From contig JBBFKY010000014.1 of the NCBI GenBank assembly GCA_037481875.1, positions 12,997 to 76,996 of the forward strand: DNA of 64,000 nt, read 5' to 3'. Position 1 is the stretch's first letter; every line of letters begins with the position of its first letter. Below the pieces are notes generated by a model, which was not told the origin of the DNA, made no database searches, and saw only the letters and a program-made list of their open reading frames with translations. Position numbers and translations under genes: made by a program. This document shows positions 9,240 to 56,605 of the stretch, in pieces. The DNA comes from Desulfosoma sp. GTDB taxonomy: Bacteria; Desulfobacterota; Syntrophobacteria; Syntrophobacterales; DSM-9756.

Positions 9240-9255
9240 GGCTTGCTCCTTCGGC

Positions 9256-9762: not shown

Positions 9763-9815
9763 GGATTTTCCCCTCCCCTGCCAACACGTGGCCTTCCTTG
9801 GCGCACATCATTTCT

Positions 9816-12800: not shown

Positions 12801-14261
12801 TTCCAGAATAAAATTGGACCCCTTCACTTCTACAGGCCGACGACGACCGCTCGCATCCGGTTCCCCAAGAGCCATCTTCACGCATTCGATGGCCTTGACC
12901 TTCCCGTTTTCCCCAATGATACGAACGGGATTGGTCAGGGTGAGAATCTCGATGCCTTCCTCATGGCATTCTTCAATCTCTTCCTCATTGGCAGGCATTT
13001 CCGCCAAACTGCGCCGATACACGATAAAAGGTTTCTTGGATCCCGTGCGCAGCGCCGTGCGGACACAGTCCATGGCCACATTGCCGCCGCCCACCACCGC
13101 CACGCGATCCCCAAGAAAGATTCGATTCCCCAGGTTCACTTCCCGCAAGAACTGAACCCCGGAATACACCCCTTCCAGATCTTCGCCTTCAATGCCCAGC
13201 TTCTTGCACTCATGGGCTCCGATGCCGATGAAAAACGCCTTGTAACCCTGCTCGCGCAACTGCCCGATGGTGAAGTCCTTCCCGATTTCCACTCCGGTTT
13301 TGAACTCCACCCCCATGTCACGAATCACCTGAATCTCCGCCTCGATGATATCCCGAGGCAGCCTATAGGCGGGAATACCTACCGTGAGCATCCCTCCCAG
13401 AACCGGAAGCTTCTCAAAGACCGTGACCCGGTAACCTTCCTGCGCCAAGTAATAGGCGCAGGTTAAACCCGCGGGGCCGGACCCGATAATGGCCACCTTT
13501 TCTTCCCGCTTTTGCTTGATTTCAGGAACAAACCGAGTTTCCGCCTTGAGATCCAAATCGGCGATGTAGCGCTTGATAAAGTCAATAGCCACCGGCTCAT
13601 CCACTTTGCCCCGCATACAGGCGGTCTCACAGGGATGATGGCACACACGCCCGCAGATAGCCGGCAAAGGATTATCCTTCTTGATCAGCTCCAAGGCTTC
13701 CCGGTACCGCCCCTGGGCCGCCAAGGCCACATAACCTTGAACCGAAATATGGGCGGGACAGGTGGCCTTGCACGGAGAAGTCCCACGCTTTTCAATGGCA
13801 AAGGCTCCCGGAACCGCTTGAGGGTAAAGGCGATAGGCCGCCCGCCGCTCGCTTAAACCCATGTCGAATTCGTTTTTCAGGGTCACGGGACACACACGGG
13901 CACATTCTCCACAGCCCGTGCATTTTTCCAGGTCGATGAAACGAGGTTTTCGGCGAACCTTGACCCGAAAATTTCCAGGCTCCCCGCTCAGTTCTTCCAC
14001 TTCACTCAGGGTCAAAACCTCAATGTTTAAATGCCGGCCGACCTCGACCAGTTTGGGAGAGATAATTCACATGGCACAGTCATTGGTAGGAAACGTCTTG
14101 TCCAACTGGGCCATCGCACCCCCGATGGACGACGCTTTTTCCAGCAGGTAGACGTAAAAACCCGTGTCAGCGATGTCGAGGGCGGCTTGCATGCCTGCAA
14201 CGCCGCCGCCGATCACCAACACGGCACCTCGAACTTTTCCGTCTTCACCCTCGTGCCTCAT
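9816..14261 (-). CDS. hdrA: Giant selenocysteine HdrA, duplicated and fused to a GltD-like module
   Basis: A 1481-residue flavo-iron-sulfur protein. Order: HdrA N-terminal FAD Rossmann fold (VIGGGVAGM, residues 16-24) with the Cys-Sec motif DCAM-U (TGA at 14067-14069, residue 65); ferredoxin motif [12 protein letters not shown] (about 114-125); a GltD-like NADPH/FAD module with its own N-terminal [4Fe-4S] cysteines (about 160-570, GSGPAG near 260); the rest of the first HdrA core (LQCVGSRD near 726); a second HdrA ([11 protein letters not shown] near 932, Rossmann VVGGGIAGM near 1071, IQCVGSR near 1226); and two C-terminal [4Fe-4S] motifs (about 1414 and 1444). The TGA aligns with a cysteine in other HdrA proteins and the frame is perfect on both sides, so it is read as Sec. 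The start at 14261 follows GGGAGGA; upstream ATGs at 14267 and 14276 are less well spaced. It lies 29 bases after the response regulator. A formate/NAD(P)H/ferredoxin electron-confurcating role is inferred. Confidence 0.93.
14034..14051 (-). promoter_or_regulatory. Possible bSECIS of hdrA
   Basis: Fifteen bases after the in-frame TGA the minus strand can form CTGG/CCGG around a ten-base loop containing GGTCG. The stem is short and the match is weaker than at the two fdhA sites; the main support for Sec is the uninterrupted HdrA frame. Confidence 0.45.
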
Positions 14262-38289: not shown

Positions 38290-38643
38290 ATGAATCCTTA
38301 TGTTCCCGTTCTCATTATGTTCTTTGTGGCGGCGGCCACGGCGGCCGGCATGATCGCGGCTACCACCTACATCGGCCCAAAGAAAAAGTTTGCCGAAAAA
38401 ATGGAGGTGTTCGAATGTGGCGAAAGCCCCATTGTGAACCCCAAGCAGAGATTCTCGGTGAAGTTTTATCTCGTGGCTTTATTTTTTGTGATCTTCGACA
38501 TTGAAACTGTCTTTTTGTACCCTTGGGCGGTTTTGTTCAACGACCTTGGGTGGTTTGGTTTTGTGGAAATGATGTTGTTTGTGTTCATTTTGGCCGTGGG
38601 CCTTGTTTACATATGGAGAAGGGGAGCTTTGGAATGGGATTGA
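38290..38643 (+). CDS. nuoA: Complex I subunit NuoA
   Basis: A 117-residue membrane subunit with three helices (about 5-27, 60-82, 88-110), the family motif ECGESPIVNPKQRFSVKFY in the first loop and the FVIFDIETVFLYPWA block in the second helix. NuoA forms part of the quinone-channel end of the membrane arm. First gene of the operon; its end overlaps nuoB by ten bases. Confidence 0.96.
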   Translation: MNPYVPVLIMFFVAAATAAGMIAATTYIGPKKKFAEKMEVFECGESPIVNPKQRFSVKFYLVALFFVIFDIETVFLYPWAVLFNDLGWFGFVEMMLFVFILAVGLVYIWRRGALEWD

Positions 38644-39203
38644 AGCTTTCGCGCTGGCAAGTCACGCGCGATCTTGTGGCGAGACAGAAGGAAAGCACGG
38701 GGCCTGAGCGCCTTTTGGATGGCAGCGTGATTTTGACCCGGCTGGAAGCGGCGGTCAACTGGGCCCGCAAGTATTCCTTTTTCCTTTATCCTTTTGTGAC
38801 GGCCTGTTGCGGCATGGAATTCATGTCGGTGGCCGGGCCTCGTTACGACCTGGACCGATTTGGGGCCGCTCTGCCTCGTTTTTCTCCACGTCAGGCTGAC
38901 CTTCTCATGGTGGTCGGCACCATCAGCCACAAGCAGGCCCCCATTCTTGTCAAAGTCTACAACCAGATGGCGGAACCCAAATGGGTTTTCGCCTTTGGTG
39001 TGTGTGCGGTTTCAGGCGGGTTTTACGACAACTACTCCGTGGTTCAGGGCATTGACACTCTAATTCCTGTGGACATTTATGTTCCGGGATGCCCGCCGCG
39101 CCCGGAGATGGTTTTAGATGGTTTGTTGCAGCTGCAGCAGAAGGTCAAGGAGGAGCGGTGGTCGGATTGGCCGCGGGGTGAAGCGCCGGTGAGCCGCTGT
39201 TAG
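38634..39203 (+). CDS. nuoB: Complex I subunit NuoB (N2 cluster)
   Basis: A 189-residue subunit holding the terminal [4Fe-4S] cluster N2: the tandem cysteines TACCGMEFM, then GVCAVSGG and PGCPPRPE are all present. N2 passes electrons to quinone. The start at 38634 lies inside the nuoA 3' end after GGGGAG. The N-terminal 45 residues are longer and more basic than in E. coli. Confidence 0.96.
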   Translation: MGLKLSRWQVTRDLVARQKESTGPERLLDGSVILTRLEAAVNWARKYSFFLYPFVTACCGMEFMSVAGPRYDLDRFGAALPRFSPRQADLLMVVGTISHKQAPILVKVYNQMAEPKWVFAFGVCAVSGGFYDNYSVVQGIDTLIPVDIYVPGCPPRPEMVLDGLLQLQQKVKEERWSDWPRGEAPVSRC

Positions 39204-39232
39204 GGCCGGTAGCGAACAAGGATATGGGGCTC

Positions 39233-39715
39233 ATGGACGAAAGCGTCACGCTCAAAAAGCTGGCTCAGAAGTTTCCGGACGCCGTGGTCGGCACGCACCG
39301 ATTTCGAGGCGACGACACGGTCATCGTCACCAAGGATAAGATTCGCGACATTTGTTTCTTTCTCCGGGACGACCCGGATCTGCTCTATAACTTCATGATG
39401 GACCTGACGGTGGTGGATTATCTGGGGCGGGAACCTCGCTTTGAAGTGGTCTATCACCTTTATTCCCTGGCTCACAATCAAAGGGTTCGCCTCAAAGCTC
39501 TAGTGCCCGAATCCGACCTCACCATTGATTCGGTGGTGCCGGTATGGATCGCCGCCGACTGGTTTGAGCGGGAGGCGTACGATATGTACGGGGTGGTCTT
39601 CCAGGGCCATCCCAATTTGCGTCGTATTCTCCTTTACGAGGGCTTTGAAGGGCATCCCTTGCGCAAGGACTATCCGCTGAAGAAAAGGCAGCCCCTGATC
39701 GGCCCTGTCAACTAA
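39233..39715 (+). CDS. nuoC: Complex I subunit NuoC
   Basis: A 160-residue 30-kDa-type subunit, not fused to NuoD. The signature EREAYDMYGVVFQGHPNLRRIL lies near residues 112-133 and the protein ends in the HPLRKDYP motif. ATG 39233 is chosen because AAGGA (39218-39222) lies ten bases upstream; ATG 39224 is only one base from it. Confidence 0.95.
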   Translation: MDESVTLKKLAQKFPDAVVGTHRFRGDDTVIVTKDKIRDICFFLRDDPDLLYNFMMDLTVVDYLGREPRFEVVYHLYSLAHNQRVRLKALVPESDLTIDSVVPVWIAADWFEREAYDMYGVVFQGHPNLRRILLYEGFEGHPLRKDYPLKKRQPLIGPVN

Positions 39716-39735
39716 CACTCCAATGGATAGGCGCC

Positions 39736-40926
39736 ATGTCTGAAATTTCAAGAGACCTTCATACCGAACTCATGGTCATCAACATGGGTCCATCGCACCC
39801 GGTGACCCATGGCACGGTGAAGTTCCTAGCCACCCTGGAAGGAGAAACCATCGTGGACCTCGATGTGGAGATCGGCTACCTCCACCGAGGTTTTGAAAAG
39901 ATGTGCGAAAACAGCACATGGCAACAGGTGATCCCCTATACGGATCGTCTCAACTACGTCTCTCCCCTGATCAACAACACGGGCTATGCCCTGGCTGTGG
40001 AAAAGCTTTTGGGAATCGATGTGCCCGAGCGGTGCAAGTATTTGAGGGTCATCGCCTGCGAACTGTCGCGCCTTGCGGACCATTTGACCAACGTGGCGGC
40101 TGCCGGCTTGGAATTGGGTGCCTTTACGGCCTTTCTCTATTTTGTGGAAGCTCGCGAACTGGTCTGGGATCTCATAGAAGCTCTGTGCGGCGCTCGAGTG
40201 ACCGTCAATTATGTGCGCATCGGCGGCCTCAAAAACGATCTGCCGGAGCGCTTTGACGAAAAAGTCAAGCATGTCTTCAAAGAAGTGCGGCGTCTGTGGA
40301 AGGATGTGGACAAGCTCCTGACCAAGAACCGCATATTCATCGACCGTGTGCGGGGTGTAGGCGCCATCAGCGGGGAAGAGGCCATCGCTTACGGATTTAC
40401 GGGGCCGTGCCTCAGAGCCTGCGGTGTGCCGTACGATGTGCGCAAAGCCCAGCCCTATCTGGTGTATGACCGCATGGATTTTGAGGTCCCTATTGGGGAA
40501 ACGGGCGATAATTACGACAAGTACTTGGTGCGCATGGAAGAAATGCAGCAGAGCATGCGCATCGTGGAACAGGCCTTGGCGCAGATGCCTGACGGTCCCA
40601 TCAATGTGCGACTGCCTCACGTGCGCATGGAACCAAAGGAAAAAATTTACACCCGCATCGACTCTCTCATTTACCACTTCAAGACGGTCATCGAAGGCAT
40701 CAAGCCGCCTCCAGGTGAAGTGTACCAGGCTGTGGAAGGCGGAAACGGTGAGTTGGGGTTTTATCTGGTGAGCGACGGCAGCGGCAAACCGGTCAAGTGC
40801 CGAGTGAGACCGCCCTGCTTTGCTTTGACCGCCGCCATGCCGAGGCTGGTCAAAGGCCGGTTGCTTGCGGATATCGTCCCCACATTTGACATGATCAACA
40901 TGATCGGCGGAGAATGCGATAGATAG
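39736..40926 (+). CDS. nuoD: Complex I subunit NuoD
   Basis: A 396-residue 49-kDa-type subunit, related to [NiFe]-hydrogenase large subunits but without nickel cysteines. It contains MGPSHPVTHGTVKF near the N-terminus with the quinone-site histidine, GYLHRGFEK, and the GECDR C-terminus. With NuoB it forms the quinone reduction site. Confidence 0.97.
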   Translation: MSEISRDLHTELMVINMGPSHPVTHGTVKFLATLEGETIVDLDVEIGYLHRGFEKMCENSTWQQVIPYTDRLNYVSPLINNTGYALAVEKLLGIDVPERCKYLRVIACELSRLADHLTNVAAAGLELGAFTAFLYFVEARELVWDLIEALCGARVTVNYVRIGGLKNDLPERFDEKVKHVFKEVRRLWKDVDKLLTKNRIFIDRVRGVGAISGEEAIAYGFTGPCLRACGVPYDVRKAQPYLVYDRMDFEVPIGETGDNYDKYLVRMEEMQQSMRIVEQALAQMPDGPINVRLPHVRMEPKEKIYTRIDSLIYHFKTVIEGIKPPPGEVYQAVEGGNGELGFYLVSDGSGKPVKCRVRPPCFALTAAMPRLVKGRLLADIVPTFDMINMIGGECDR

Positions 40927-40928
40927 CC

Positions 40929-42002
40929 ATGGCTGCAGATCTTATCGAATCCGTTGCCAAGATCCTCTTCATCTTCGCGGTCAACGTGGGCGTTTTCGCG
41001 CCCATTTTGGGGTGGGTGGAGAGAAAGCAGAGCGCCGTGATGCAGGATCGTATCGGCGCCAACCGAGCTGACATTTTGGGTTTTACGGCCATCGGATTGT
41101 TCCATTCCCTCGCCGATGCCATCAAGCTGCTCACCAAGGAAGATTTCGTTCCCGCCAACGCCAACAAGTTCTTTCACACTCTGGCGCCTTTTATTTCTCT
41201 GGTTCCCGCCATCGCCGCGTTCGCCATTGTGCCTTTCGGCGGTCGTTACGAACTGTTCGGCCACGAGGTACATTTGGTCATTGCGGACCTGGATGTCGGC
41301 ATTCTTTACGTGTTCGCTTTAGCCGGTTTGGCTACCTACGGGACGGTGCTGGCGGGATGGTCTTCTCGAAGCAACTGGTCTCTTTTGGGTGGTCTTCGGG
41401 CCTCGGCCCAGATGCTTTCCTATGAAGTGGCCATGGGGCTGAGCATCATCGGTCTCATTATGGTCTATGGAACCCTTAAACTTACGGAAATCGGCGCTAT
41501 TCAAGAGGACTTCTTCCGCTGGGGAATCTTTCTGCAACCCCTAGGGTTCATCATTTTCATGACTTGCGCTATTGCGGAAAACAAGCGCATTCCCTTTGAC
41601 ATTCCGGAAGCGGAATCGGAGCTGGTGGCTGGGTATTTCACGGAATACAGCGGCATGAAGTTCGTCATGTTTTGGATGGCTGAGTTTTTGGAGATGGTAA
41701 CCATCAGTGCCGTGGTGACCACACTCTTTTTCGGCGCTTGGCACATCCCCTTTGTGACGGACGCCATGCTGCTGAGTTGGTTTCAGTTTGCGGGGCCCAA
41801 CGGCGCCGCCGCCTTGGCCATGTTGGTCAACATTGCGGTCTTTTTTACGAAGGTGTCTTTCTTCATCTGGCTGCAAATGACCATCCGGTGGACGCTTCCG
41901 CGCTTCCGATATGACCAGGTCATGAGAATGTGCTGGAAGATGTTGCTGCCGCTTTCCCTCATCAACCTCTCAATTACCGGGCTGGTGGTTTTGCTGCTAT
42001 GA
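40929..42002 (+). CDS. nuoH: Complex I subunit NuoH
   Basis: A 357-residue subunit with about eight membrane helices. The conserved cytoplasmic loop ENKRIPFDIPEAESELVAG (about residues 217-235) carries the acidic residues that couple quinone chemistry to proton pumping. It starts two bases after nuoD and overlaps nuoI by four bases (ATGA). Confidence 0.97.
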   Translation: MAADLIESVAKILFIFAVNVGVFAPILGWVERKQSAVMQDRIGANRADILGFTAIGLFHSLADAIKLLTKEDFVPANANKFFHTLAPFISLVPAIAAFAIVPFGGRYELFGHEVHLVIADLDVGILYVFALAGLATYGTVLAGWSSRSNWSLLGGLRASAQMLSYEVAMGLSIIGLIMVYGTLKLTEIGAIQEDFFRWGIFLQPLGFIIFMTCAIAENKRIPFDIPEAESELVAGYFTEYSGMKFVMFWMAEFLEMVTISAVVTTLFFGAWHIPFVTDAMLLSWFQFAGPNGAAALAMLVNIAVFFTKVSFFIWLQMTIRWTLPRFRYDQVMRMCWKMLLPLSLINLSITGLVVLLL

Positions 42003-42622
42003 GGACAACGACAGGTTTGGAGCACACCGTGACTTCCGTGCAGGTGGGCATTCCCGCGGCGGTCTTGAAGCCCAAAAAGGTGCGGCGTCGCCTGGACATG
42101 ACCTTGTGGGAAAAGCTCTATGTGGCCGAAATCGTGCGCGGGCTGGTGGTGACCAGCAAGCATTTCTTCATCAACATGATCGGCTTCATCTTTCCTCCGG
42201 CCGGAAAGAAGCGCAAAATCTTTACGGTCTATTACCCGGAAGAGAAACTCACACTGCCTCCAGCCTATCGTGGCCGGCCCGTGTTGGTGGCCGATGCCCA
42301 GGGCAAGGAGAAGTGCGTGGCCTGCGGATTGTGCGAGAAGATGTGCCCGGCCCATGCCATCTCGATCGTGGCGGCCGAAAAGGCTCCGGGAGAGAGGTAT
42401 CCGGAGCGGTACACTTTGGATTTAGGTCGTTGCGTGTATTGTGGGTATTGTGAAGAGGTATGCCCTAAGGAAGCCATTGTGATGAGCGATGAATACCAGG
42501 GGCTCGCGCAGAGGGAACGCAGCCGGCTGGTCTTCCAAAAGGAGCAGTTGTTGAGGCCGGAGTCGAAGGTCAAGGCGCGTCTTTCTTATGTGAGAAGGAT
42601 ATACTCCAAATGGAACTACTGA
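41999..42622 (+). CDS. nuoI: Complex I subunit NuoI (two [4Fe-4S])
   Basis: A 207-residue subunit with two complete ferredoxin motifs, CVACGLCEKMCP (about 104-115) and CVYCGYCEEVCP (about 144-155), carrying clusters N6a and N6b that wire the peripheral arm to NuoB. The 45-residue N-terminal extension before the amphipathic anchor is longer than usual. Start from the ATGA overlap with nuoH. Confidence 0.96.
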   Translation: MRTTTGLEHTVTSVQVGIPAAVLKPKKVRRRLDMTLWEKLYVAEIVRGLVVTSKHFFINMIGFIFPPAGKKRKIFTVYYPEEKLTLPPAYRGRPVLVADAQGKEKCVACGLCEKMCPAHAISIVAAEKAPGERYPERYTLDLGRCVYCGYCEEVCPKEAIVMSDEYQGLAQRERSRLVFQKEQLLRPESKVKARLSYVRRIYSKWNY

Positions 42623-43125
42623 TCTTCTATGCCTTTTGCGTGGGGGCGGTGGTTTCGGCCCTGCTGATGGTGACCACCAAGCGGCCGGTGCGTGCGGCCA
42701 TGAGCCTAGTGGCGACCATGTCCTTTTTGGCGGGCCTTTATGCTCTGCTAAACGCCCACCTGATCGCGGTGCTGCAGCTGATCGTTTATGCCGGCGCCAT
42801 CATGGTGTTGTTCTTGTTTGTGATCATGCTTTTGAACATAGAAGAAAAAGAGGGAAAGCTCGCCAAGAATGTCTTTTTCATTCAGTTGGCGGGAACCGTT
42901 GTGGTGGGCGTTCTCCTGGTCGCCATGGTCGTGGTCATGAATCGACTGGGACCTTCGGTGACGGCGGTGGAAGTGGATCCCAGCTTCGGGACCACCAAAG
43001 CGGTGGGCTGGATGCTTTTCACCAAGTACCTGCTGCCCTTTGAAATAGCGTCCGTGTTGTTGCTTGCGGCCATCGTGGGAGCGGTGATTCTAGCCAAGAG
43101 GAGGATAGGTAATTCGGGGGCCTAG
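42610..43125 (+). CDS. nuoJ: Complex I subunit NuoJ
   Basis: A 171-residue, five-helix membrane subunit with the pi-bulge-containing third helix segment [20 protein letters not shown] (about residues 57-76). Overlaps the end of nuoI by 13 bases. Confidence 0.95.
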
Positions 43126-43156
43126 GGTGGGGCCGCTGAATTATCGGGTGGAGCCT

Positions 43157-43459
43157 ATGGTTTCGTTAAACGCATACCTGGTGCTGGGCGCTGTGTTGTT
43201 TTCCATCGGTGCGGTGGGCGTTCTGGCGCATCGCAATGCGCTGATCATCTACATGTGCATTGAACTGATGCTCAACGCCGTGAACCTCACTATTGTGGCT
43301 TATTCACGGTTTCTTAACAGTCTGGACGGTCACGTCTATGTCTTCATGATCATGACCGTGGCTGCGGCTGAGGCTGCTGTGGGGTTGGCAATCCTCATCG
43401 CCCTTTTCCGCAACAAGCCGACCGTCGATGTGGACGAAATCAATCTAAGCAAAGGTTAG
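43157..43459 (+). CDS. nuoK: Complex I subunit NuoK
   Basis: A 100-residue, three-helix subunit homologous to MrpC, with the conserved membrane glutamates in [11 protein letters not shown] (Glu in helix 2) and [13 protein letters not shown]. The usual length favours ATG 43157 (preceded by GGGTGGAG) over an in-frame GTG at 43127. Confidence 0.95.
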
Positions 43460-43466
43460 GAAGGAC

Positions 43467-44978
43467 GTGGAAACTATTTACTCGATCAAACCCTTGCTGG
43501 CCGTGCTGGTGTCTCTTCTGGCGGTGCCTCTGATCGTCAAAACCGGGGAGAAGAATCCAAATCTTAGGGAATTCTGGTCGGTTTTGGCCGGGGTTCTGAA
43601 GTTTTCCATCGTCGTGTCCATGGTGCCGACGATCTTGTCCGGGCACACCATCGAGTGCATCTTAGTGGAAGGCTTTTACAAGGGAATCGATCTAAAGTTC
43701 CGAGTGGATGCCTTCGGCCTGCTTTTCGCGACCGTCTCTTCCTTTCTATGGATTTTGACGACCTTCTATTCCGTTGGGTACATGAGAGCGGGGAAGGAAC
43801 ATTCCCAAACCCGGTATTTCAGCTGTTTCGCCATCAGTTTGTCGGCAACCATGGGTGTTGCCTTTTCCGCCAATCTTGTCACCTTGTTCTTGTTTTATGA
43901 AATCTTGAGCCTGGCGACGGTGCCTCTGGTCGGGCACAAGGAAACCGGCGAGGCTGTGGAAGGCGCTACCAAGTATTTCCTTTACCTGTTGGGTCTGTCG
44001 AAAACACTTCTTCTGGCAGGAGTCATCATCGTCTACATGACGGCAGGAACGACGGACTTTCAGCCGGGAGGGCTTCTGCGACCCCAGACCGGATCGACCT
44101 TGCTTTTCGCCTCCTTCTTCCTGTTTCTTTTCGGGTTCGCCAAGGGCGCTGTGATGCCCTTCCATAACTGGCTTCCTTCGGCCATGGTGGCGCCCACTCC
44201 GGTCAGTGCTTTGCTCCATGCGGTGGCCGTCGTGAAAGTCGGTGTGTTCTCGATCCTCAGGGTGGTGTTTCACATCTACGGTGTGGACCTAATGACCCGC
44301 ATGAATTTGGGCATCACGGCCGCTTACGTGGTTTCCTTTACCATCATCATGGCTTCCGTCATCGCCTTGACGAAAGACAATTTGAAGGCACGGCTGGCCT
44401 ATTCCACGGTGAGTCAGCTTTCCTACGTCATCTTGGGTGCTGTGCTTCTGACCCCGAGCAGCATGGTAGGGGGTATCATGCACATCGCCAACCACGCGTT
44501 TTCAAAGATCACCTTGTTCTTCTGCGCAGGCTCCCTGTACGTCTCGGCGCACAAGACGGAAATCAGTCAGTTGTCCGGTATCGGCAAAAAAATGCCGTGG
44601 ACCATGGCGGCCTTTTTCATCGGATCTTTAAGTATGATCGGTGTGCCGCCGGCGGCCGGATTTACCAGCAAATGGTTTTTAGCTTTAGGGTCTATCGAAG
44701 CCCATGCTGTGCCGATTTTGATGGTGCTGGTCATGAGCACCCTGTTGAATGCGGCTTATTTTCTGCCCATCACCTACAAGGCGTTCTTTGAAAAGGAAAA
44801 CGGTGCCCACGGTGCTGAAGGCCATGGCCATGGCCATGGCCATGGAGACGGGCACCATGAGGAGGTTCGGGAGCTGAAATTCGTCGTCGTTCCCTTGGTG
44901 CTTACGGCGATCATCTCGCTGCTCATCGGTCTATTTCCCGACTTCTTCCTCACTTTGGCCAAGGAGGTGATCCGATGA
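43467..44978 (+). CDS. Antiporter-like complex I subunit (MrpD/NuoN type) with His-rich loop
   Basis: A 503-residue, about 14-helix proton-channel subunit of the NuoL/M/N-MrpD family. Key residues are kept: helix-5 Glu in FLFYEILSLA and helix-7 Lys in GFAKGAVMPFHNWLP. A cytoplasmic or periplasmic loop near residues 449-468 contains a GHGHGHGHGDGHH histidine cluster encoded by a GGCCAT tandem repeat (44819-44843). It takes the place usually occupied by nuoL, but it lacks NuoL's long C-terminal lateral helix. GTG start 43467 after AGGAAGGAC. Confidence 0.88.
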   Translation: METIYSIKPLLAVLVSLLAVPLIVKTGEKNPNLREFWSVLAGVLKFSIVVSMVPTILSGHTIECILVEGFYKGIDLKFRVDAFGLLFATVSSFLWILTTFYSVGYMRAGKEHSQTRYFSCFAISLSATMGVAFSANLVTLFLFYEILSLATVPLVGHKETGEAVEGATKYFLYLLGLSKTLLLAGVIIVYMTAGTTDFQPGGLLRPQTGSTLLFASFFLFLFGFAKGAVMPFHNWLPSAMVAPTPVSALLHAVAVVKVGVFSILRVVFHIYGVDLMTRMNLGITAAYVVSFTIIMASVIALTKDNLKARLAYSTVSQLSYVILGAVLLTPSSMVGGIMHIANHAFSKITLFFCAGSLYVSAHKTEISQLSGIGKKMPWTMAAFFIGSLSMIGVPPAAGFTSKWFLALGSIEAHAVPILMVLVMSTLLNAAYFLPITYKAFFEKENGAHGAEGHGHGHGHGDGHHEEVRELKFVVVPLVLTAIISLLIGLFPDFFLTLAKEVIR

Positions 44979-45232
44979 TTCGGAAACTTGTTCTTTTTAT
45001 CGGGGACCCGGCAAATTCCAAGAAGGTCAAGAAGATCGGGATCGCCATGCTGATTGTGACGTTCATTTCCGACTTCTTCGTCCATAGGGAACATGTGCAT
45101 TACATTTGGGACCGAATTCCTGGATGGGGCGCTCTGTACGGGTTTGTATCTTGTGTGATCATTATTTTGGCATCCAAGTTCTATGGACATAAGTGCGGCA
45201 TCATGAGGGACGAGGATTACTACAATGACTGA
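44975..45232 (+). CDS. Small membrane protein embedded in the nuo operon
   Basis: An 85-residue protein with two predicted helices (about 22-36 and 49-65) separated by a conserved-looking HREHVHYIWDRIPGWGALYG loop. Four-base overlap with the gene before and eight-base overlap with the gene after show it is an operon member. Similar small proteins accompany split or duplicated NuoL-type genes in other anaerobes; a role as accessory subunit of the antiporter module is inferred. No cofactor motif. Confidence 0.8.
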   Translation: MIRKLVLFIGDPANSKKVKKIGIAMLIVTFISDFFVHREHVHYIWDRIPGWGALYGFVSCVIIILASKFYGHKCGIMRDEDYYND

Positions 45233-47006
45233 GTGGATTCACCCGTCCGTCTTCTACATTCCCGGTGCGTTTCTCCTTCCGTTCCTTCGGGGACGGTTGC
45301 TGAAGGCTGGAATGCTGCTGATTCCTCTTCTGGGCACGGCAGCCATGTACCTCATGATGCACCTTCCCCATGGGACTTATTGGACGTGGAATTTCCTAGG
45401 CCAGCCCATGTGCTTTGGATCCGTGGACAAACTGAGCATCGTCTTCGGCTGGGTGTTCACGATCATGTCGTTCATCGGGATGGTGTATGCCCTGCATGTG
45501 GACGATGTGGGGCAGCATGTGGCGGCGATGCTTTACGTCGGCGGTTCCCTGGGAGTCACCTTTGCAGGCGATTATTTGACACTCTTTATCTTTTGGGAAC
45601 TGATGGCCTTCTCGTCGGTTTACCTGGTTTTTGCTCAAAGAGAACCGGAGGCTATTGGTGCAGGATTCCGCTACATACTGGTCCATGCGTTCGGCGGCGT
45701 GTGCCTGCTGGGTGGTGTGGTGCTGCACTATCTGCATGGTGGGTCCATGCTGGTGGGTCCGCTGGAACAGGATGGAAGCCTGGCTTTTTATTTGATGCTG
45801 ATCGGCGTGATCATCAACGCCGCTGTGCCTCCCCTTCATGCCTGGCTGACGGATGCCTACCCTGAAGGAACGGTTACCGGATCCGTTTTTATGTCCGCCT
45901 TTACGACCAAAACGGCGGTTTATGTGCTGGTGCGAGTTTTTCCGGGCACAGAGCTTCTTGTTTACCTAGGCACCATCATGGCCCTCTACGGGGTCGTGTA
46001 CGCCGTGCTGGAAAACGATGCTCGGCGCCTTTTGGCTTACCACATCGTAAGTCAGGTGGGTTACATGGTCACGGGCGTCGGAATCGGGACGGAAATGTCC
46101 TTGAACGGGTCGGTTTCCCACGCCTTTGCGCATATCCTTTACAAAGGACTGCTTTTCATGGGGGCCGGGGCCGTCATTCACATGACGGGCCGCAGGAAGC
46201 TGACGGAACTTGGCGGCCTGTATCGCACCATGCCTATCACCCTGGTGTTGTACATGATCGGAGGGTTCGCCATTTCGGCCTTTCCACTCTTCAGTGGCTT
46301 TGTCACCAAATCCATGGTGGTGGCTGCGGCCAGCTCCGACCATCGTCCTTTGGTCGCCCTGCTGCTGACCATGGCCTCTTCGGGAACCTTTCTCCATACA
46401 GGGCTCAAGCTTCCCTACTATATGTTCTTCGGGAAGGATTCAGGCCTTGAAGCGAAGGAACCACCTTCCAACATGATCTGGGCCATGGTGATTGCATCGT
46501 TTCTGTGTATCGGGATCGGATGTTTCCCTAAACCCTTGTATGATCTGCTGCCGTTCCCTGTGCACTTTGATCCTTACACCGGCGATCACGTGACAAGCGC
46601 CCTGGGTCTGCTGCTCTTTACAGGCTTAGGCTTCTTCATGCTGCTGAAGAAGCTGGATCCGGAACCGACCATCAGCATCGACACCGATTGGTTTTATCGT
46701 AAGGGAAGTCGGGTGTTCATGTGGTTGGCCCGCAAACCTGTGGCCACCACGGATGATTACGTAGGCAATATTTACCGAACATGGTTTGGACGGTTCACCC
46801 TGTTCTTCTCGGACATTCTGGCTCGTATCATGGATGTTCGAGGTATCGACGGCGCGGTGAACGGTATCGCTAATTTCTTTCTTGCGGCTTCACGAATGGT
46901 GCGCACCACGACAACAGGGTTTGTGCGGCATTATGCGGCGACGATGCTCATCGCGGGCATTGTCATTCTAGGCTATTACCTCTTTTCCACTTTGATGAGT
47001 CTATGA
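45225..47006 (+). CDS. NuoL/MrpD-like subunit with altered proton-path lysine
   Basis: A 593-residue, 14-helix antiporter-like protein with a C-terminal extension (about 485-593) including a last membrane helix, so it is the nearest equivalent of NuoL. Helix-5 Glu is present (FIFWELMAF). The helix-7 lysine, five residues before the PLH motif in NuoL (GKSAQIPLH), is Asn here (INAAVPPLH). The helix-8 Lys region (HILYKGLLFMGAG) is intact. The change implies altered or inactive proton transfer in this unit. Overlaps its neighbours on both sides. Confidence 0.87.
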   Translation: MTEWIHPSVFYIPGAFLLPFLRGRLLKAGMLLIPLLGTAAMYLMMHLPHGTYWTWNFLGQPMCFGSVDKLSIVFGWVFTIMSFIGMVYALHVDDVGQHVAAMLYVGGSLGVTFAGDYLTLFIFWELMAFSSVYLVFAQREPEAIGAGFRYILVHAFGGVCLLGGVVLHYLHGGSMLVGPLEQDGSLAFYLMLIGVIINAAVPPLHAWLTDAYPEGTVTGSVFMSAFTTKTAVYVLVRVFPGTELLVYLGTIMALYGVVYAVLENDARRLLAYHIVSQVGYMVTGVGIGTEMSLNGSVSHAFAHILYKGLLFMGAGAVIHMTGRRKLTELGGLYRTMPITLVLYMIGGFAISAFPLFSGFVTKSMVVAAASSDHRPLVALLLTMASSGTFLHTGLKLPYYMFFGKDSGLEAKEPPSNMIWAMVIASFLCIGIGCFPKPLYDLLPFPVHFDPYTGDHVTSALGLLLFTGLGFFMLLKKLDPEPTISIDTDWFYRKGSRVFMWLARKPVATTDDYVGNIYRTWFGRFTLFFSDILARIMDVRGIDGAVNGIANFFLAASRMVRTTTTGFVRHYAATMLIAGIVILGYYLFSTLMSL

Positions 47007-48592
47007 TGAATGCTGCGAATTATCCCATCCTGTCGGTGACCACGTTTCTCCCCCTTTTGGGCGTGGTCTTGGTCTGCCTGATTCCAAGCCGGCATCGAAA
47101 GGCCATTCAATGGACGGCCTTTCTGGTGACCGTGGCCACGTTTCTCGTGTCCTTGGAACTTTATTTCAAGTTCGACACAACCACGTGGCAGATGCAGTTT
47201 GTGGAAGATGCTCCCTGGATTCCGCAATTCGCCATTCGGTACCAGATGGGTATCGACGGCATCAGTCTGCTTCTGGTGCTCTTGACCACTTTTCTCTCCG
47301 CCGTTTCCGTCTTGTCCACATGGACGGCGGTGACGGAAAGGGTCAAGGGCTATATGGCCTCTCTGCTTCTGCTCGAAACAGGAATGATCGGGGTCTTTTG
47401 CGCGCTGGATTTCATTCTGTTTTACGTCTTCTGGGAAGTGATGCTCATTCCCATGTACTTCATCATCGGGATTTGGGGAGGCCCTCGACGCATCTACGCT
47501 GCCGTCAAGTTCTTTATATACACCATGTCCGGTAGCGTCCTGATGCTTGTGGCCATACTGGTCTTGTACTTCATGCACTATGAGGCCACTGGAACCTACA
47601 GCTTCTACATTCTCGATTACCACAAGCTGGGACTCCCCGCGAACCTTCAGATCCTTCTGTTTCTTGCGTTCGCCGTGGCTTTTGCCATCAAGGTTCCCAT
47701 GTTTCCGTTCCATACATGGCTTCCCGATGCCCATGTGGAAGCTCCTACGGCGGGCAGTGTTATTCTGGCCGGTGTTTTGCTCAAGATGGGCACCTATGGG
47801 TTCCTGCGTTTTTGTCTGCCCATTTTCCCTCAAGCTACGGTGTACTTTGTCCCCTTGATCCTGGCCTTGTCTCTTGTCGGAATTATCTATGGCGCCTTGG
47901 TGTCCCTGGCGCAAGACGACGTGAAAAAGCTGGTCGCTTACTCCAGCGTCAGCCACCTTGGCTACTGTATGTTGGGCATGTTTGCACTGAATGTGGACGG
48001 CATCAAGGGAAGCCTGATTCAGATGATCAACCATGGGCTGAGCACAGGGGCTTTGTTTTTGATCGTCGGTATCCTGTATGAAAGAAGGCATACAAGGCTC
48101 ATTTCCGAATACGGCGGTATCATGAAAGTGATGCCCATATTCGCCTTCATTTTCCTGCTGGTGGCGTTCTCGTCCATGGGCGTTCCGGGAACGAACGGGT
48201 TTGTGGGTGAACTTTTGATACTTATCGGTGCTTTTCAGGCTTCGTTGAAGTTTGGGCTTCCTGCGACCATCGGGCTGATTCTTGGAGCCGTCTACCTTCT
48301 ATGGACGGTCAAGAGAGTCGCCTATGGGCCCATTACCAAGGAAGAGAACCGCGTTTTGAAGGACATGTCGGCACGGGAATACGCCTACATGTTACCGGTT
48401 TTGCTTTTCATTTTCTGGATCGGGCTTTACCCCAAACCCTTCCTTAGAACCATGGATGCGTCGGTGACCCATCTTCTGGAATCCGTCCAGACACAGAAAA
48501 CGGCGCATGCTTTCCAACACGGACCGGTGTGGCTGCAAAGTCTTTTTGCCAAAGTCGATCTTGAACAGCTGACAAAGGGCCAAGGGCGGTAA
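47003..48592 (+). CDS. nuoM: Complex I subunit NuoM
   Basis: A 529-residue antiporter-like subunit. Key residues: helix-5 Glu in YVFWEVMLIPMY, helix-7 Lys in AFAIKVPMFPFHTWLPDAH and the following VEAPTAGSVILAGVLLK. Overlaps the preceding stop by four bases (ATGA). A full set of helices is present. Confidence 0.95.
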   Translation: MMNAANYPILSVTTFLPLLGVVLVCLIPSRHRKAIQWTAFLVTVATFLVSLELYFKFDTTTWQMQFVEDAPWIPQFAIRYQMGIDGISLLLVLLTTFLSAVSVLSTWTAVTERVKGYMASLLLLETGMIGVFCALDFILFYVFWEVMLIPMYFIIGIWGGPRRIYAAVKFFIYTMSGSVLMLVAILVLYFMHYEATGTYSFYILDYHKLGLPANLQILLFLAFAVAFAIKVPMFPFHTWLPDAHVEAPTAGSVILAGVLLKMGTYGFLRFCLPIFPQATVYFVPLILALSLVGIIYGALVSLAQDDVKKLVAYSSVSHLGYCMLGMFALNVDGIKGSLIQMINHGLSTGALFLIVGILYERRHTRLISEYGGIMKVMPIFAFIFLLVAFSSMGVPGTNGFVGELLILIGAFQASLKFGLPATIGLILGAVYLLWTVKRVAYGPITKEENRVLKDMSAREYAYMLPVLLFIFWIGLYPKPFLRTMDASVTHLLESVQTQKTAHAFQHGPVWLQSLFAKVDLEQLTKGQGR

Positions 48593-48595
48593 CTT

Positions 48596-50071
48596 ATGGA
48601 ACAGGTGATGAGCACCATCAGTCTGAGCGCGATTGCTCCGGAGTTGGTTCTGGTCGCTTGCGGGTTGATCGTGTTAATGATTCAAGCTGTCGTTGGAAGA
48701 AGATATCCCGATTCGTTTGCGTATGTGTCCCTGCTTGGGGTGGCGGCCGCCCTCGTGTTGGTCTGGAAACAACCCGAACCCTTTGAGGCTCGAAGTGTCG
48801 CCTACTTTTTCTGCGATATGTGGGTGGTGGATAATTTTTCCAGGTTTTTTAAGATTATTTTCCTTTTGGGCACCGGTCTGACCGTCCTGATTTCCATCAA
48901 ATACCTTCACAACGAAGCCATGCAGCATAGTGAATACTATGCTCTGATACTCATGTGTACCGTGGGCATGATGGTCATGGCGAGTGCGGTGGAACTTATC
49001 ACCATCTTTCTGGGTGTGGAACTCATGTCCCTTTCGCTGTATGCGCTTGCCGGATACACACGCACGCGCATGCTGTCCAATGAGGCGGCCATCAAGTACT
49101 TTATTTTAGGATCCTTCGCCTCTGGATTTCTGATTTACGGGATCGCTTTGATTTACGGCACCACCGGCACCTCTTTGGTTCCTGAAGTCGCCAAATACAT
49201 CACTCAAGCCGGCGGAGCTGCGGCGATACTTGTGATGGGCATGGCGTTGCTGATTATCGGTTTTGGTTTCAAAACGGCTTCGGTGCCGTTTCATATGTGG
49301 GCCCCGGACGTGTACGAAGGAGCGCCGGCTCCCGTGACCGGATTCATGTCAGCCGGGCCTAAGGCGGCGGCTTTTGCAGCTTTTGTGCGGATCTTTATGG
49401 AGGGTCTTCCGCAACTGGAAACCGACTGGGTCATGGTTATTTGGATTTTAGCGGCTTTAACCATGACGGCCGGTAACATCATCGCCTTGGTGCAGGAAAA
49501 CATAAAGAGAATGCTGGCCTATTCGAGTATCGCTCATGCCGGCTATGTGCTTGTGGCTTTTCTGGCCGCAGGGGAACTGGGGCTGACGAGCATTCTCTAT
49601 TACATGCTGGTCTACACCTTCATGAATCTCGGGGCGTTCGCTGTGATTACCATGCTGGCTGGCACAGGAGAATCGCGGGTAAAGGTGGAAGATTATCGTG
49701 GTGTGGGCTATGAACATCCCATGGCGGCGTTGGCCATGAGCCTTTTTCTGTTTTCTCTTGCCGGTATTCCGCCCACCGGTGGATTTATGGGAAAATTCTA
49801 CATATTTTCCGCCGCCGTGAAGCAGGGATTTATCTGGCTGGCCATTATCGGTGTTTTGAACAGTGTGGTGTCCGTCTACTACTATCTCAGGGTGACGGTG
49901 GCCATGTATATGAAGCCGCCGGAGCGCCCGGAGGATGTACCGACTGCGACGGCTTTGTCGCCAGGACTCGTGCTGGCTGTCGTGATTTCCGCTTACGGGG
50001 TCTTGACGCTGGGCCTGTTTCCCGCAACATATGTGGCGATGGTGAAAGCATCCTTCCTGTCCTTTCTCTAA
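48596..50071 (+). CDS. nuoN: Complex I subunit NuoN
   Basis: A 491-residue antiporter-like subunit with helix-5 Glu (IFLGVELMSLSLYAL), helix-7 Lys (GFGFKTASVPFHMWAPDVY) and the YEGAPAPVTGFMS block. It starts three bases after nuoM; an in-frame ATG at 48608 is an alternative start. Downstream, a 97-base gap separates it from the formate dehydrogenase gene. Confidence 0.95.
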   Translation: MEQVMSTISLSAIAPELVLVACGLIVLMIQAVVGRRYPDSFAYVSLLGVAAALVLVWKQPEPFEARSVAYFFCDMWVVDNFSRFFKIIFLLGTGLTVLISIKYLHNEAMQHSEYYALILMCTVGMMVMASAVELITIFLGVELMSLSLYALAGYTRTRMLSNEAAIKYFILGSFASGFLIYGIALIYGTTGTSLVPEVAKYITQAGGAAAILVMGMALLIIGFGFKTASVPFHMWAPDVYEGAPAPVTGFMSAGPKAAAFAAFVRIFMEGLPQLETDWVMVIWILAALTMTAGNIIALVQENIKRMLAYSSIAHAGYVLVAFLAAGELGLTSILYYMLVYTFMNLGAFAVITMLAGTGESRVKVEDYRGVGYEHPMAALAMSLFLFSLAGIPPTGGFMGKFYIFSAAVKQGFIWLAIIGVLNSVVSVYYYLRVTVAMYMKPPERPEDVPTATALSPGLVLAVVISAYGVLTLGLFPATYVAMVKASFLSFL

Positions 50072-50168
50072 ACCTTGACCTAAGGGTTTTCCCGGGGGCT
50101 GTGTCGGGATACACTTGCGCGCAGGGCTATGAGTGAAGGGAATGACGGACTGAGAAGAGAGAGAAAAA

Positions 50169-52841
50169 ATGAGTTCGGTGAAGCTGACGATTGACGGGCG
50201 GGAGGTGGCGATCGCCGCTGGAAAAACGATTCTGGACGCAGCAAAGGCAGCCGGAATCACGATTCCGACCCTATGCCACCACGAGCGATTAAACCCCATT
50301 GGATCGTGCAATCTCTGTGTCGTTGAAGTGCAAGGGAAAAGCACGCCCGTGCAGGCGTGTATGACGCCCGCGGAAGAAGGCATGACGGTGATCACGGACT
50401 CCGACATGCTTCGAAGCATGCGGCAAAAGGCCATGCAACGGCTTCTGGTTCGGCACCCTTTGGACTGTCCCATCTGCGACAAAGCAGGGGACTGCAGGCT
50501 GCAGGATCTGGTTTTCGAATTGGGTGTGACGGCAGAACAGTATGAAGAGCCGAAGGAGCGAACGGAAGCGGTCTATGCCACGCCGCTCATCAAGTACTGG
50601 CGCGACCGTTGTGTGCTGTGCCAACGATGCGCGGCCGCCTGCCGTGAAATCAAGGGGCAAGGGGCGATTGATTTTGTCGAGGTGAACGGCTCCGTAGAGA
50701 TGCGGGTGACCCCCGAAAAGTGCGTCTCGTGCGGTGAATGCCTCCAGGTATGCCCCACCGGGGCTCTGACGGAAAATCTGAGCCCTGTAAAGGCGCGGCT
50801 GTTCACCACAAAGAAAGTTGCGACCACATGCACTTACTGCGGCTGCGGGTGCCAGGTGGAACTCAGCGTTTTGGACAACCGTGTGGTCGCCGTAGACGGC
50901 AGAGATGATCCGACGATTAATGAAGGAAGCCTGTGCGTCAAGGGACGGTTTGGATACGAATTCATTAGCAGTGAGGAACGGCTGAAAAAACCGTTGATTC
51001 GACGGGGGGACGGTTTCGTCGAGGTCAGTTGGAACGAAGCGCTGGACTACGTGGCGAAGAACTTCAGTCGAATCAAGAAGGAACATGGTCCGGACGCCAT
51101 TGGAGGGTTTGCTTCAGCACGTTGCACCAATGAAGACAATTATGTGTTCCAGAAATTTATCCGCGCGGTGATCGGCACCAACAATGTGGATCACTGCGCC
51201 CGTCTCTGACACAGCTCCACGGTGGCAGGTCTTGCCGCCACGTTTGGAAGCGGGGCGATGACGAACCCCCTTAAAGATGTCCTCAATTCAGGGGTCATTC
51301 TGCTGACGGGGACCAACACTACGGCAAACCATCCCATCATCGCCAATTACGTGCACGAGGCGGTGACGAAGCGGGGGGCCAAGCTTATTGTGGTCGATCC
51401 TCGAAGGATCAAGCTGGTCGATATCGCCACTATGTGGTTGCAGCCGCCTCCCGGAACGAATGTGGCGTGGATCAACGGCTTGATGCACGTCATCGTCAAA
51501 GAAAACCTCTACAATAAGGCTTACGTGGAAGAACGCACGGAGGGGTTTGAAGAACTCAAGGCTTGCGTGGAGAAATACCCACCGAAGGTTGTCGCCAAGA
51601 TCACCGGATTGAAAGAAAAGGACATTATCGCTGCGGCTCGGCTATTTGCCACTTCCGGTCCAGGCGCGATTTTGTACGCCATGGGAATCACGCAACACAC
51701 CACTGGAACGGATAGCGTGAAATGCCTTGCCGCTCTTTCTATGCTGTGCGGCTACGTGGGGGTTCCTGGTGGAGGCGTCTGCCCGTTGCGTGGGCAAAAC
51801 AACGTGCAGGGCGCCTGCGACATGGGTGGGCTGCCCAATGTGTATTCCGGGTATCAGGTGGTGACGGCCGAAGAAAATCGGCAGAAGTTTGAAAAAGCGT
51901 GGAATGTGCCGAAGCTGTCCGACAAGGTGGGCATGACCGTCACGGAAATGGGTCTGGCGGCAGGAAAGACCATCAAGGCGCTTTATATCATGGGGGAAAA
52001 CCCCGTGCTCAGCGACGCGGACATCAACCATGCCGAAAAAGCCTTGGCTTCACTGGATTTTCTGGTCGTCCAAGACATCTTTTTAACGGAGACGGCCAAA
52101 CTGGCGCATGTGGTGCTTCCCAGCGCCTGCTTTGCTGAGAAAGAAGGAACATTTACCAATACGGAACGAAAAGTGCTCAGGGTCCGCAAAGCGGTGGAAC
52201 CTCCTGGAGAAGCTAAAGAAGATTGGTGGATTACGGCGGAAATCGCGAAGCGCATGGGATACCCCATGGAATACAGCGGCCCGGAAGCCATTATGAGAGA
52301 AATCAACGCCGTAACGCCCAGCTATGGCGGCATCACCTACGAGCGGCTGGAAAAAGGCGGGCTGGTATGGCCGTGCCCGACGCAGGATCATCCGGGAACA
52401 CCCATATTGCATGTGGGTCGATTCACGCGAGGCAAGGGCGTGTTTTTTGCCATCGATTACAAGCCACCGGCGGAACCGACCGATGCCGAATATCCTTTTG
52501 TGCTTACGACGGGTCGAGTCCATTGGCATTACCACACGGGAACGATGACACGGAAAGGCACCGCTTTGAACCGGCTGTATCCGGAACCTCTGGCGGAAAT
52601 CAATGTCCAGGACGCCAAGAGATTGAAGATTGCCGACGGAGAGCTCGTGCGCATCTCCTCTCGGCGAGGCAGTATCACCATCAAGGCCTCGGTTTCGGAG
52701 GTCACGGCTCGAGGAGTGGTTTTCGTTCCCTTCCATTTCTACGAGGCGGCGGCCAACAGACTGACCATCAACGCGTTGGATCCTGTATCGAAAATCCCTG
52801 AACTGAAGGTGTGTGCGGTAAAGGTGGAAAAAGCCGCCTGA
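50169..52841 (+). CDS. fdhA: Selenocysteine formate dehydrogenase with NuoG-like N-terminus, last gene of nuo operon
   Basis: An 890-residue fusion-type catalytic subunit. N-terminal NuoG-like part: [2Fe-2S] (Cys36, 47, 50, 64), His96-Cys100-Cys103-Cys109 cluster, and two [4Fe-4S] (Cys148-158 and Cys185-195). Then the Mo/W-bis-PGD formate dehydrogenase: cluster cysteines 221, 224, 228 and 256, relay Lys258, and Sec347 encoded by TGA 51207-51209 in DHCARL-U-HSSTV. A textbook SECIS hairpin (51221-51239) starts 11 bases later. It shares the nuo strand and ends at a strong terminator, and no nuoE, nuoF or other nuoG is present. The wiring predicts formate electrons entering complex I through NuoI. 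Soluble, no signal peptide. An NAD-linked or hydrogenase-linked FDH partner encoded elsewhere is the alternative. Confidence 0.94.
51221..51239 (+). promoter_or_regulatory. bSECIS element of the nuo-linked fdhA
   Basis: GGTGGCA-GGTCT-TGCCGCC, a 7-bp stem with one G-T pair and loop GGTCT, begins 11 bases after the UGA; same layout as the other fdhA in the window. Confidence 0.9.
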
Positions 52842-52867: not shown

Positions 52868-52903
52868 CCCGGTCGAGGTCATGGACTTCGGCCGGGTTTT
52901 TTT
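52868..52903 (+). terminator. Strong intrinsic terminator of the nuo-fdhA operon
   Basis: A 13-bp stem with two G-T pairs (52868-52880 with 52884-52896), a three-base ATG loop and a run of seven T residues (52897-52903). Confidence 0.93.
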
Positions 52904-52927
52904 ATTTTGAGCATTGGCAGGTCTACC

Positions 52928-55238: not shown

Positions 55239-56605
55239 ATGAAAAGAATCGAGATTGAACAATCTTCGAAGAGCTTCTCCAGAGGGCACTCGGGCCTGGT
55301 TCTTGTGGGCCATTGGATCAACAGCAGCACGGAGCTTTGCCAACGAATGGAAAAGGAAGTTCCGCGACGGCTGGCGATCTCTCATGCGAATGGGGTCAAG
55401 ACCTCTGTGGGGATTTTGTTTATGGGAAACAGCGACTTTGAAGCCGCAGAGGGGTGGTCGGGCGATGACTGGTTCAAAGAGGCGCTGGACATCCAAAAGG
55501 TCCCTTTTCAGGAACCCTTGCGACAGCGCTTCGACAAGCACGCGAGAGTTTTCGAGCGTCTTGCCGGGGCCGCGAGCGTTGAACTGCTTGAGAGGACCCA
55601 GGTCACCGTAATGGCTCTTTCCACAGGGGATGTGGCTTTGGACCTGGATGTTTTTTGCCTGGACAATTCCGACACAAAGAAAGAAGGGGTGTCGCGGACG
55701 GACCGGAACGATGAGGGGTATGCTCCCATTGCGGCCTACCTCGGCCGAAAGCGATGGTGTCTGGGCATGAAGCTTCGCCCGGGGTCTCAGCATTCCCAGA
55801 ACGGATTTGTGGGATTTTTGCGCAAGATGCTGGGGCATGGCCGCAAGGTTACCCGAAGGTCCCTGCTGGTGCGAACGGACTCGGCTCACGATGCTGGGGA
55901 AACGCTTGTGGAGCTTAGCCGACACCCTAAGGTGAACTTCATCATCCAATGGAATCCACGCGGGGCGGACCGCCTTTCTTGGCGTGATCGGGCCTTCAGG
56001 GAGGGCCGTGTGACGGAGCCCCGGCCCGGCAAGAAAGTGGCGATCCTCAGCACATGGGTGACACGACACTATGGAGGGGAAAGCTATCGGTTTCGCCTGG
56101 TGATCCGGGTCACCGAGCGAATATCGGATGCCAAGGGACAAATGCTGATCCAGCCCGATATCACGCTGGAGGGTTGGTGGACGTCTCTTTCCATCGATGA
56201 GGATCAAGTGATTCGGTTGTACGAAAAGCGGGGTCTGAGTGAACAGTTTCACAGTGAGATCAAGTCCGATCTGGACTTGGAGCGATTGCCCTCTGGAAAG
56301 TTTGCGACCAATGCTTTGGTGTTGACCCTGGGCGGACTGGCTTACAACATCTTGCGCATCCTGGGGCAAAACGGGCTCTTGGGCCGTTTTTCGCCAGCTC
56401 GAATCGGGCCAAACGGCGTCGCATCAAGACCGTGATCCAGGAACTGATCTATCTGGCAGGGCGCGTGATCCGAAGCGGTCGTCGGCTGAAGCTCCAGTTT
56501 GGTCGGCATTGTCCCGCCTTTCAAGCGCTTCGGAATGTCTTTCTCAATTTTCGCCCAGGGCAAGACAATAACAAGTCTCTGCAAGTCCATGACTCAATGA
56601 CTTAA
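55239..56605 (+). pseudogene. IS1380-family transposase, frameshifted
   Basis: The first 387 codons encode an IS1380-type DDE transposase: first Asp in CLDNSDTKKEG, second in LVRTDSAHDAGET, and the E motif EQFHSEIKSDLDLERLPSGKF. Around 56395-56402 the frame shifts: the original frame ends at 56435 in non-family sequence. The frame starting at 56402 continues the family C-terminus (RRRIKTVIQELIYLAGRVI, then FGRHCPAFQALRNVF) and runs to a TAA at 56605. The enzyme is thus probably inactive, unless a programmed frameshift is used. Confidence 0.85.

Follow-up and report, generated by a model that had tools for sequence, protein, structure and literature searches.

A complex I operon of Desulfosoma sp. 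that probably takes electrons from formate through a dehydrogenase in the place of NuoG

The 64,000-nucleotide stretch of Desulfosoma sp. DNA analysed here, called the window below, contains an operon that encodes a quinone-reducing complex I (Nuo) together with a selenocysteine (Sec) formate dehydrogenase (FDH), FdhA. We suggest that the product is probably a formate:menaquinone oxidoreductase that belongs to the complex I family, with FdhA in the place of NuoG. A preliminary description of the window had proposed that formate is oxidised directly by complex I. The part of this proposal that makes FdhA the electron-input subunit is well supported at the level of sequence, because the association with nuo genes recurs in several arrangements, the nuo-linked FdhA proteins form a clade, the N-terminal domain is NuoG-like and the FDH active site is intact.

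The operon is a single run of 14 genes on the + strand, from nuoA (38290) to fdhA (52841); all positions are those of the whole window. NuoA, B, C, I, M, N and FdhA were identified with NCBIfam and Pfam, NuoD by alignment with Nqo4/NDUFS2, and NuoH, J and K through their homologues in the nuo operons compared. The features, with open reading frame abbreviated as ORF, are:

38290..38643, + strand: nuoA (Pfam Oxidored_q4, 124 bits)
38613..39203, + strand: nuoB (NCBIfam nuoB_fam, 202 bits, cut-off 143); start uncertain, ORF open from 38523
39224..39715, + strand: nuoC (NCBIfam NuoC_fam, 152 bits, cut-off 122)
39736..40926, + strand: nuoD (alignment to 2fug_4, Nqo4/NDUFS2, E~1e-107)
40929..42002, + strand: nuoH (matches NuoH of the nuo operons examined by tblastn, at 36-97% identity)
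42002..42622, + strand: nuoI (NCBIfam NuoI, 129 bits, cut-off 113); two CxxCxxCxxxC motifs (8 Cys)
42610..43125, + strand: nuoJ, ORF with homologues across the nuo operons examined
43127..43459, + strand: nuoK, ORF with homologues across the nuo operons examined
43467..44978, + strand: ant1, antiporter-like protein of Mrp-D type (NCBIfam NF006236, 701 bits, cut-off 663)
44975..45232, + strand: 85-residue protein between ant1 and ant2, its family present in 146 of the 395 genomes sampled from the phylum
45225..47006, + strand: ant2, antiporter-like protein of Mrp-D type (NCBIfam NF009310, 752 bits, cut-off 564)
47003..48592, + strand: nuoM (NCBIfam NDH_I_M, 642 bits, cut-off 264)
48596..50071, + strand: nuoN (NCBIfam NDH_I_N, 468 bits, cut-off 333)
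50169..52841, + strand: fdhA, Sec formate dehydrogenase with a NuoG-like N-terminal Fe-S domain (residues 1-212)
51207..51209, + strand: in-frame TGA read as Sec347 (motif CARLUHS); most orthologues have an in-frame TGA
52868..52906, + strand: intrinsic terminator after fdhA, a hairpin at 52868-52896 with a 13-bp stem and 9 G-C pairs, followed by TTTTTTT

The core subunits A, B, C, D, H, I, J and K and the antiporter-like subunits place the operon in the quinone-reducing branch of the complex I superfamily. The Fe-S ligands are present both in NuoI and in NuoB, where those of cluster N2 are C95, C96, C161 and C190 (ORF numbering). In the alignment to Nqo4, NuoD keeps the quinone-site residues His25 (His38 of Nqo4) and Tyr74 (Tyr87), and has Glu for Asp139; neither this alignment nor a listing of its cysteines reveals [NiFe] ligand motifs. 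The eight core subunits and four antiporter-like proteins listed in the preliminary description were all found where it had placed them, on the + strand, and the absence of nuoE, nuoF and an ordinary nuoG from the operon was confirmed. A, B, C, D, H, I, J, K, M and N, the N2/N6 ligands and the quinone His/Tyr are shared with the 14-subunit complex I (NDH-1, Nuo/Nqo), as is the NuoG-type Fe-S domain, carried here by FdhA. In contrast to that enzyme, NuoE and NuoF, with the flavin mononucleotide (FMN)/NADH site, and NuoL are missing; an FDH whose catalytic residues are intact stands in for NuoG, and an Mrp pair plus the 85-residue protein for NuoL.

A common strand and a terminator behind fdhA, both cited earlier as signs of a single transcript, hold. 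The terminator is the top match of a terminator scan that found none between nuoN and fdhA. The tight spacing claimed along with them is also present, except before fdhA, where the gap is 97 bp (70-120 bp in orthologues). A promoter scan gave no excess over chance.

If the TGA is decoded as Sec, fdhA is one frame of 890 residues, and it does encode the Sec-FDH with the NuoG cluster set that had been claimed. It scores 867 bits against the NCBIfam model Fdh-alpha (cut-off 666) and 414 bits against NuoG (cut-off 470). Its Cys/His motifs are C36/C47/C50/C64, H96-C100-C103-C109, C148-151-154-158, C185-188-191-195 and C221-224-228-256, the last for the proximal [4Fe-4S] cluster. The active site is intact, with Sec347-His348 and RGQNNVQG, while NuoG from the C9 operon of the same genome has the five motifs but neither the Sec/Cys-His nor the Arg motif. 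By these sequence features FdhA is the alpha subunit of a Mo/W-bis(pyranopterin guanine dinucleotide) FDH, and seemingly a live enzyme. As a selenocysteine insertion sequence (SECIS), the 54-nt fold 3' of the TGA is no better than shuffled sequences (z -0.03); the stem-loop GGCAGGUCUUGCC nevertheless resembles known bacterial SECIS loops.

It could be argued that FdhA is only a NuoG-like structural subunit, its catalytic site idle and the complex served by another donor. NuoG of ordinary complex I is itself such a remnant, and its cluster N7 has been termed an evolutionary remnant (PMC7171172). We regard an idle site as highly improbable, since the Sec/Cys position, His348 and RGQNNVQG are conserved within the FdhA clade described below, unlike in the genome's own NuoG, and since tRNA-Sec is present (74.5 bits; gathering score 47), which supports the Sec machinery. 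In the FDH of R. capsulatus (RcFDH), cluster A2 links the equivalent of the isolated N7 of T. thermophilus to the electron chain (PMC7171172), and FdhA keeps the ligands for both the N7-equivalent (C221-C256) and the A2-type cluster (C185-C195).

The operon was compared with loci in other genomes of the phylum; below, G numbers denote genomes, L numbers loci and f numbers families. The block from nuoA to fdhA recurs in at least six other genomes. It has the same gene order, with the small ORF included and fdhA last, in G001 and G003 (both family f1), G027 (f3) and G339 (f93), the last of which lies outside the window's order, in a different part of the phylum. Contig ends split the block in G002 and G013, and G037 has only an FdhA fragment (76% identity). 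As the flanking genes on both sides vary between genera, conservation stops at nuoA and fdhA. At L196 and L315 (G339), a second FdhA gene (50-53% identity) in divergent orientation is located just upstream of the window-type operon.

Most FdhA relatives of 56-69% identity are encoded within nuo operons, in most cases between nuoD and nuoH, i.e., in nuoG's place. The nearest ones outside the window type (62-65%) mostly follow the order D-[X]-FdhA-H-I-J-K-L..., where X is a 650-residue flavoprotein with a NuoF-type 4Fe-4S domain, Fer4_20 and Pyr_redox_2. X is missing at L072, L073, L074 and L204, with FdhA still in the nuo operon, and at L219/L220 FdhA stands 5' of nuoA. In a full-length tree of 73 rows, 44 form one FdhA clade (Shimodaira-Hasegawa-like approximate likelihood ratio test, 99), and 34 of them are adjacent to nuo genes (18 with X, nine without X and seven of the window type). 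The window-type proteins are monophyletic with support 100. No FdhA beside NuoE/NuoF belongs to the 44-member clade, and the sole nuo-adjacent FdhA outside it (L214_1136) lies next to a second FdhA and NuoF. Taken together, the tree and the loci place FdhA beside nuo genes in several families and in differing gene orders.

X brings in another explanation, a multi-input complex in which the [2Fe-2S] cluster of the docked FdhA is also fed by a separately encoded dehydrogenase for NAD(P)H or ferredoxin. A single complex would then exchange electrons among formate, NAD(P)H/ferredoxin and quinone. The X found between nuoD and fdhA in many relatives has the domains one would expect in an NAD(P)H module placed on FdhA, and the [2Fe-2S] ligands of FdhA are invariant. 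However, X is absent from the window operon and likewise from the operons of G008, G014, G016 and G257, and the best matches to X elsewhere in the genome (39-44% identity) are mostly partial and mostly part of larger ORFs. We therefore consider a multi-input complex unlikely.

The preliminary description had also taken the NuoG cluster set as an argument for complex I. The motifs are there, but they are not specific and by themselves are weak evidence, because soluble NAD-FDHs share them: FdsA of R. capsulatus also has the set, which was rejected as proof of complex I membership. The genome's own NuoGs have the same or nearly the same motifs.

Three finer comparisons of the N-terminal domain sequence lean towards complex I. 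In a PDB search, residues 1-215 of FdhA match NuoG/NDUFS1 best (142 bits), followed by a bifurcating hydrogenase (135) and RcFDH (131), while the body of the protein matches FDHs. The His-Cys3 motif, HPLDCPICDK, is the one seen in alignments with mitochondrial NDUFS1, and HPL(D/E)CP.CDK is present in 43 of the 44 clade members. The dimer interface of RcFDH is at the His-Cys3 cluster and includes Leu122 (PMC7171172); at this position the window FdhA has Pro101, like complex I, and not the Leu of the soluble enzyme. Among 61 FdhA proteins beside NuoE/F, the motif position is Pro in one, Leu in 20 and a gap in 28, where the motif is unaligned. Finally, in a careful N-domain tree, from which L084 and L085 were left out, nuo-linked FdhA form one clade (98/95) that is joined to NuoG of the NADH complexes (96/93).

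Alternatively, one transcript could encode two machines, a ferredoxin-fed headless complex I of the 11-subunit type and a soluble FdhA with ferredoxin or NAD+ as its acceptor. Headless nuo operons with an Mrp cassette and no FdhA do exist (L304, L307 and L309), ferredoxin is the usual proposed donor of headless complexes (PMC11238625, PMC13040438), and over its whole length the fold of FdhA is most like that of soluble NAD-FDHs. An AlphaFold2 model of FdhA (predicted local distance difference test, pLDDT, 85; predicted template modelling score, pTM, 0.87) finds whole-length NAD-FDHs as its best structural matches (Z 47-49, TM 0.92), and NuoG of complex I ranks lower (Foldseek; mycobacterial 8e9h_G, TMq 0.78). 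As this is expected under every hypothesis, the fold does not decide on docking. RcFDH (FdsA; PDB 6tg9) resembles FdhA in domain order, cluster set and about 40% whole-length identity, but pairs with FdsB/FdsG and has the Leu122 dimer contact, whereas FdhA has no NuoE/F partner and has Pro101. The recurrence of the FdhA clade in nuoG's own slot, the position of NuoE/F-linked FdhA outside this clade, and the NuoG-like N5 motif and N-domain all make two separate machines improbable.

Several observations weigh against the proposal that FdhA feeds this complex I. The fdhA gene alone is set 97 bp behind its neighbour, and the protein retains the [2Fe-2S] ligands despite there being no NuoF to use the cluster. 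The N-domain tree is support rather than proof, because an approximately unbiased test does not reject a topology that unites the N-domains of all FDHs to the exclusion of NuoG (p = 0.235). When the N-domain was examined column by column for residues typical of NuoG, only the N5 motif was informative. Seven of the 44 clade members lie beside X only and three beside neither nuo genes nor X, so an FdhA of this kind may also function apart from complex I. The motif HPLDCPICDK also occurs in the FdhA of L084 and L085 with no nuo genes nearby, at L085 with 12 kb of upstream sequence. The N-domains of these two proteins (L084:408-3077 and L085:12383-15052) fall inside the window-type group and the full-length sequences outside it, which hints at domain exchange between FDHs.

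A nuoEF pair encoded elsewhere that serves the window complex would also speak against formate as the direct donor, and such genes were looked for. The genome (G000) measures 3.40 Mb and is 99.6% complete. It carries three NuoD genes, and the host, a sulfate-reducer-type bacterium, possesses two ordinary complexes I beside the window operon. Both operons are complete and of the NADH type, C9 with the order EF fusion-A-B-C-D-G-H-I-J-K-L-M-N and C3 with E, F, A, B, C, D, H-N, G. The two nuo-linked nuoEF sets thus have their own NuoG and membrane arm, and because each sits in such a complete operon they do not point to the window complex. A further NuoF-type domain is found in a 1224-residue ORF on C1, outside any nuo operon. 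The formate channel FocA is absent from this genome. External formate use by the FocA route is therefore not supported, and the absence weakly points to internal formate, which might come, for instance, from an oxidative Wood-Ljungdahl pathway.

With the NADH head gone and an FDH in the operon, the formate:menaquinone oxidoreductase proposed here therefore probably pumps protons with electrons that come straight from formate. The N-terminal Fe-S domain of FdhA would dock on NuoI/NuoC/NuoD in the manner of NuoG, and formate would be oxidised in the cytoplasm at the Sec/Mo(W) site. Electrons would then pass from the proximal [4Fe-4S] cluster (the N7 equivalent) to the second [4Fe-4S] cluster, N4, N5 and NuoI (N6a, N6b), and on through N2 of NuoB to the quinone, presumably menaquinone. 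NuoH and the four antiporter-like subunits, two of Mrp type with the small partner, would pump the ions, presumably protons. The textbook potentials are about -0.43 V for CO2/formate, about -0.07 V for menaquinone and about -0.32 V for NAD, and formate offers about 0.11 V more driving force than NADH. The forward direction, from cytoplasmic formate to menaquinone, would have ~0.35 V of driving force and fits the energetics at least as well as the reverse, although reversal is possible, and formate-making in syntrophy may be a role for it.

The number of antiporter-like subunits in the preliminary description was right, and two of the four are NuoM and NuoN. NuoL, however, is absent: the NCBIfam model NDH_I_L scores ant2 at 153 bits and ant1 at 193 bits (cut-off 407). 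The other two are Mrp-D proteins, between which lies the 85-residue ORF that had not been listed, and nuoL is replaced by this cassette of ant1, small protein and ant2. The C-terminus of ant2 is NuoL-like, its R.IDG.V.G segment aligning with NuoL with only a small insertion; an extended NuoL-type lateral helix was sought for comparison with 2M complex I, and the ant2 structure model is poor (pLDDT 55). The small protein has no Pfam or NCBIfam match and stands between ant1 and ant2 at every locus inspected. The trio is a shared building block of Mrp operons (L303, L305) and some nuo operons, including the headless ones without FdhA, where it also takes nuoL's place, and the small protein may be an unnamed subunit of Mrp-type modules. 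The gene order at L304, L307 and L309 is nuoABCDHIJ(K)-ant1-small-ant2-nuoM-nuoN, with neither FdhA nor NuoL.

The 2M complex I, which has an extra NuoM according to the citation in PMC7117926, also has four antiporter-like subunits. The extra ones of the window, however, belong by NCBIfam to Mrp-D families with a small partner and are not a duplicated NuoM, and the window complex has no NuoL and an FDH head. Formate hydrogenlyase (FHL; E. coli FHL-1, PDB 7z0t), the known complex I relative that works with an FDH, similarly has this enzyme on a complex I-type membrane machine. However, FHL has a [NiFe] hydrogenase site and FdhF with a separate ferredoxin-like subunit, whereas in the window operon NuoD lacks [NiFe] ligands and retains the quinone site, and the NuoG-like domain is part of FdhA itself.

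Elsewhere in the window (6313-14015, - strand) there is a second Sec-FDH of ~687 residues with no NuoG-like N-domain, 51% identical to FdhA in the FDH body. It adjoins a 354-residue Fe-S protein and a 1398-residue protein with several FAD/NAD-binding and 4Fe-4S domains, and the region looks like an Hdr/GltD-type FDH cluster, possibly electron-bifurcating. A transposase gene (DDE group 1; 55239-56435) lies a short way downstream of the operon. No relatives were found on viral contigs. A separate scan of genome contigs was hampered because the motifs are common, and it missed the closest operons.

The donors of headless complex I have been described as unknown or as ferredoxin (PMC11238625, PMC12142623, PMC13040438), and an unknown electron-donating oxidoreductase has been considered for a Desulfobacterota nuo cluster without nuoEFG (PMC12142623). 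The window operon shares with the 11-subunit headless enzymes of Desulfitobacterium and Moorella (PMC11238625, PMC13040438) the lack of nuoEFG and the question of the donor, but differs in encoding a candidate donor, FdhA, itself. Seep-SRB1g has an fdhF2-nfnB gene pair, for which the relevant passages of PMC10553843 note no link to nuo genes, and Lost City Chloroflexi carry a 2M complex I, with focA-fdhA-nuoG/hoxEF on a separate contig (PMC7117926). A full-text literature search found no description of a catalytic FDH in NuoG's place; prior mention in Chadwick 2018 or Pereira 2011 is possible.

More broadly, we tentatively propose, at a little short of an even chance, that this phylum has a clade of complexes I with a live FDH in NuoG's seat that couple formate oxidation directly to quinone reduction and ion pumping. 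They could preserve the ancestral state of NADH-type complex I, or be a re-invention based on the docking domain of NuoG, a chimera that joins an N-domain like that of NuoG to an FDH body. The operon family, with its FdhA clade, diagnostic motif and several gene arrangements, offers a candidate answer to what feeds headless complex I. If true, formate, which is an intermediate both in the Wood-Ljungdahl pathway and in syntrophy, would be coupled to menaquinone and ion pumping without NADH. Nqo3 has been placed as a descendant of cytoplasmic FDHs (PMC10100899); these complexes would be a living counterpart to that descent of NuoG/Nqo3, and the molybdoenzyme past of NuoG would not be merely a remnant.

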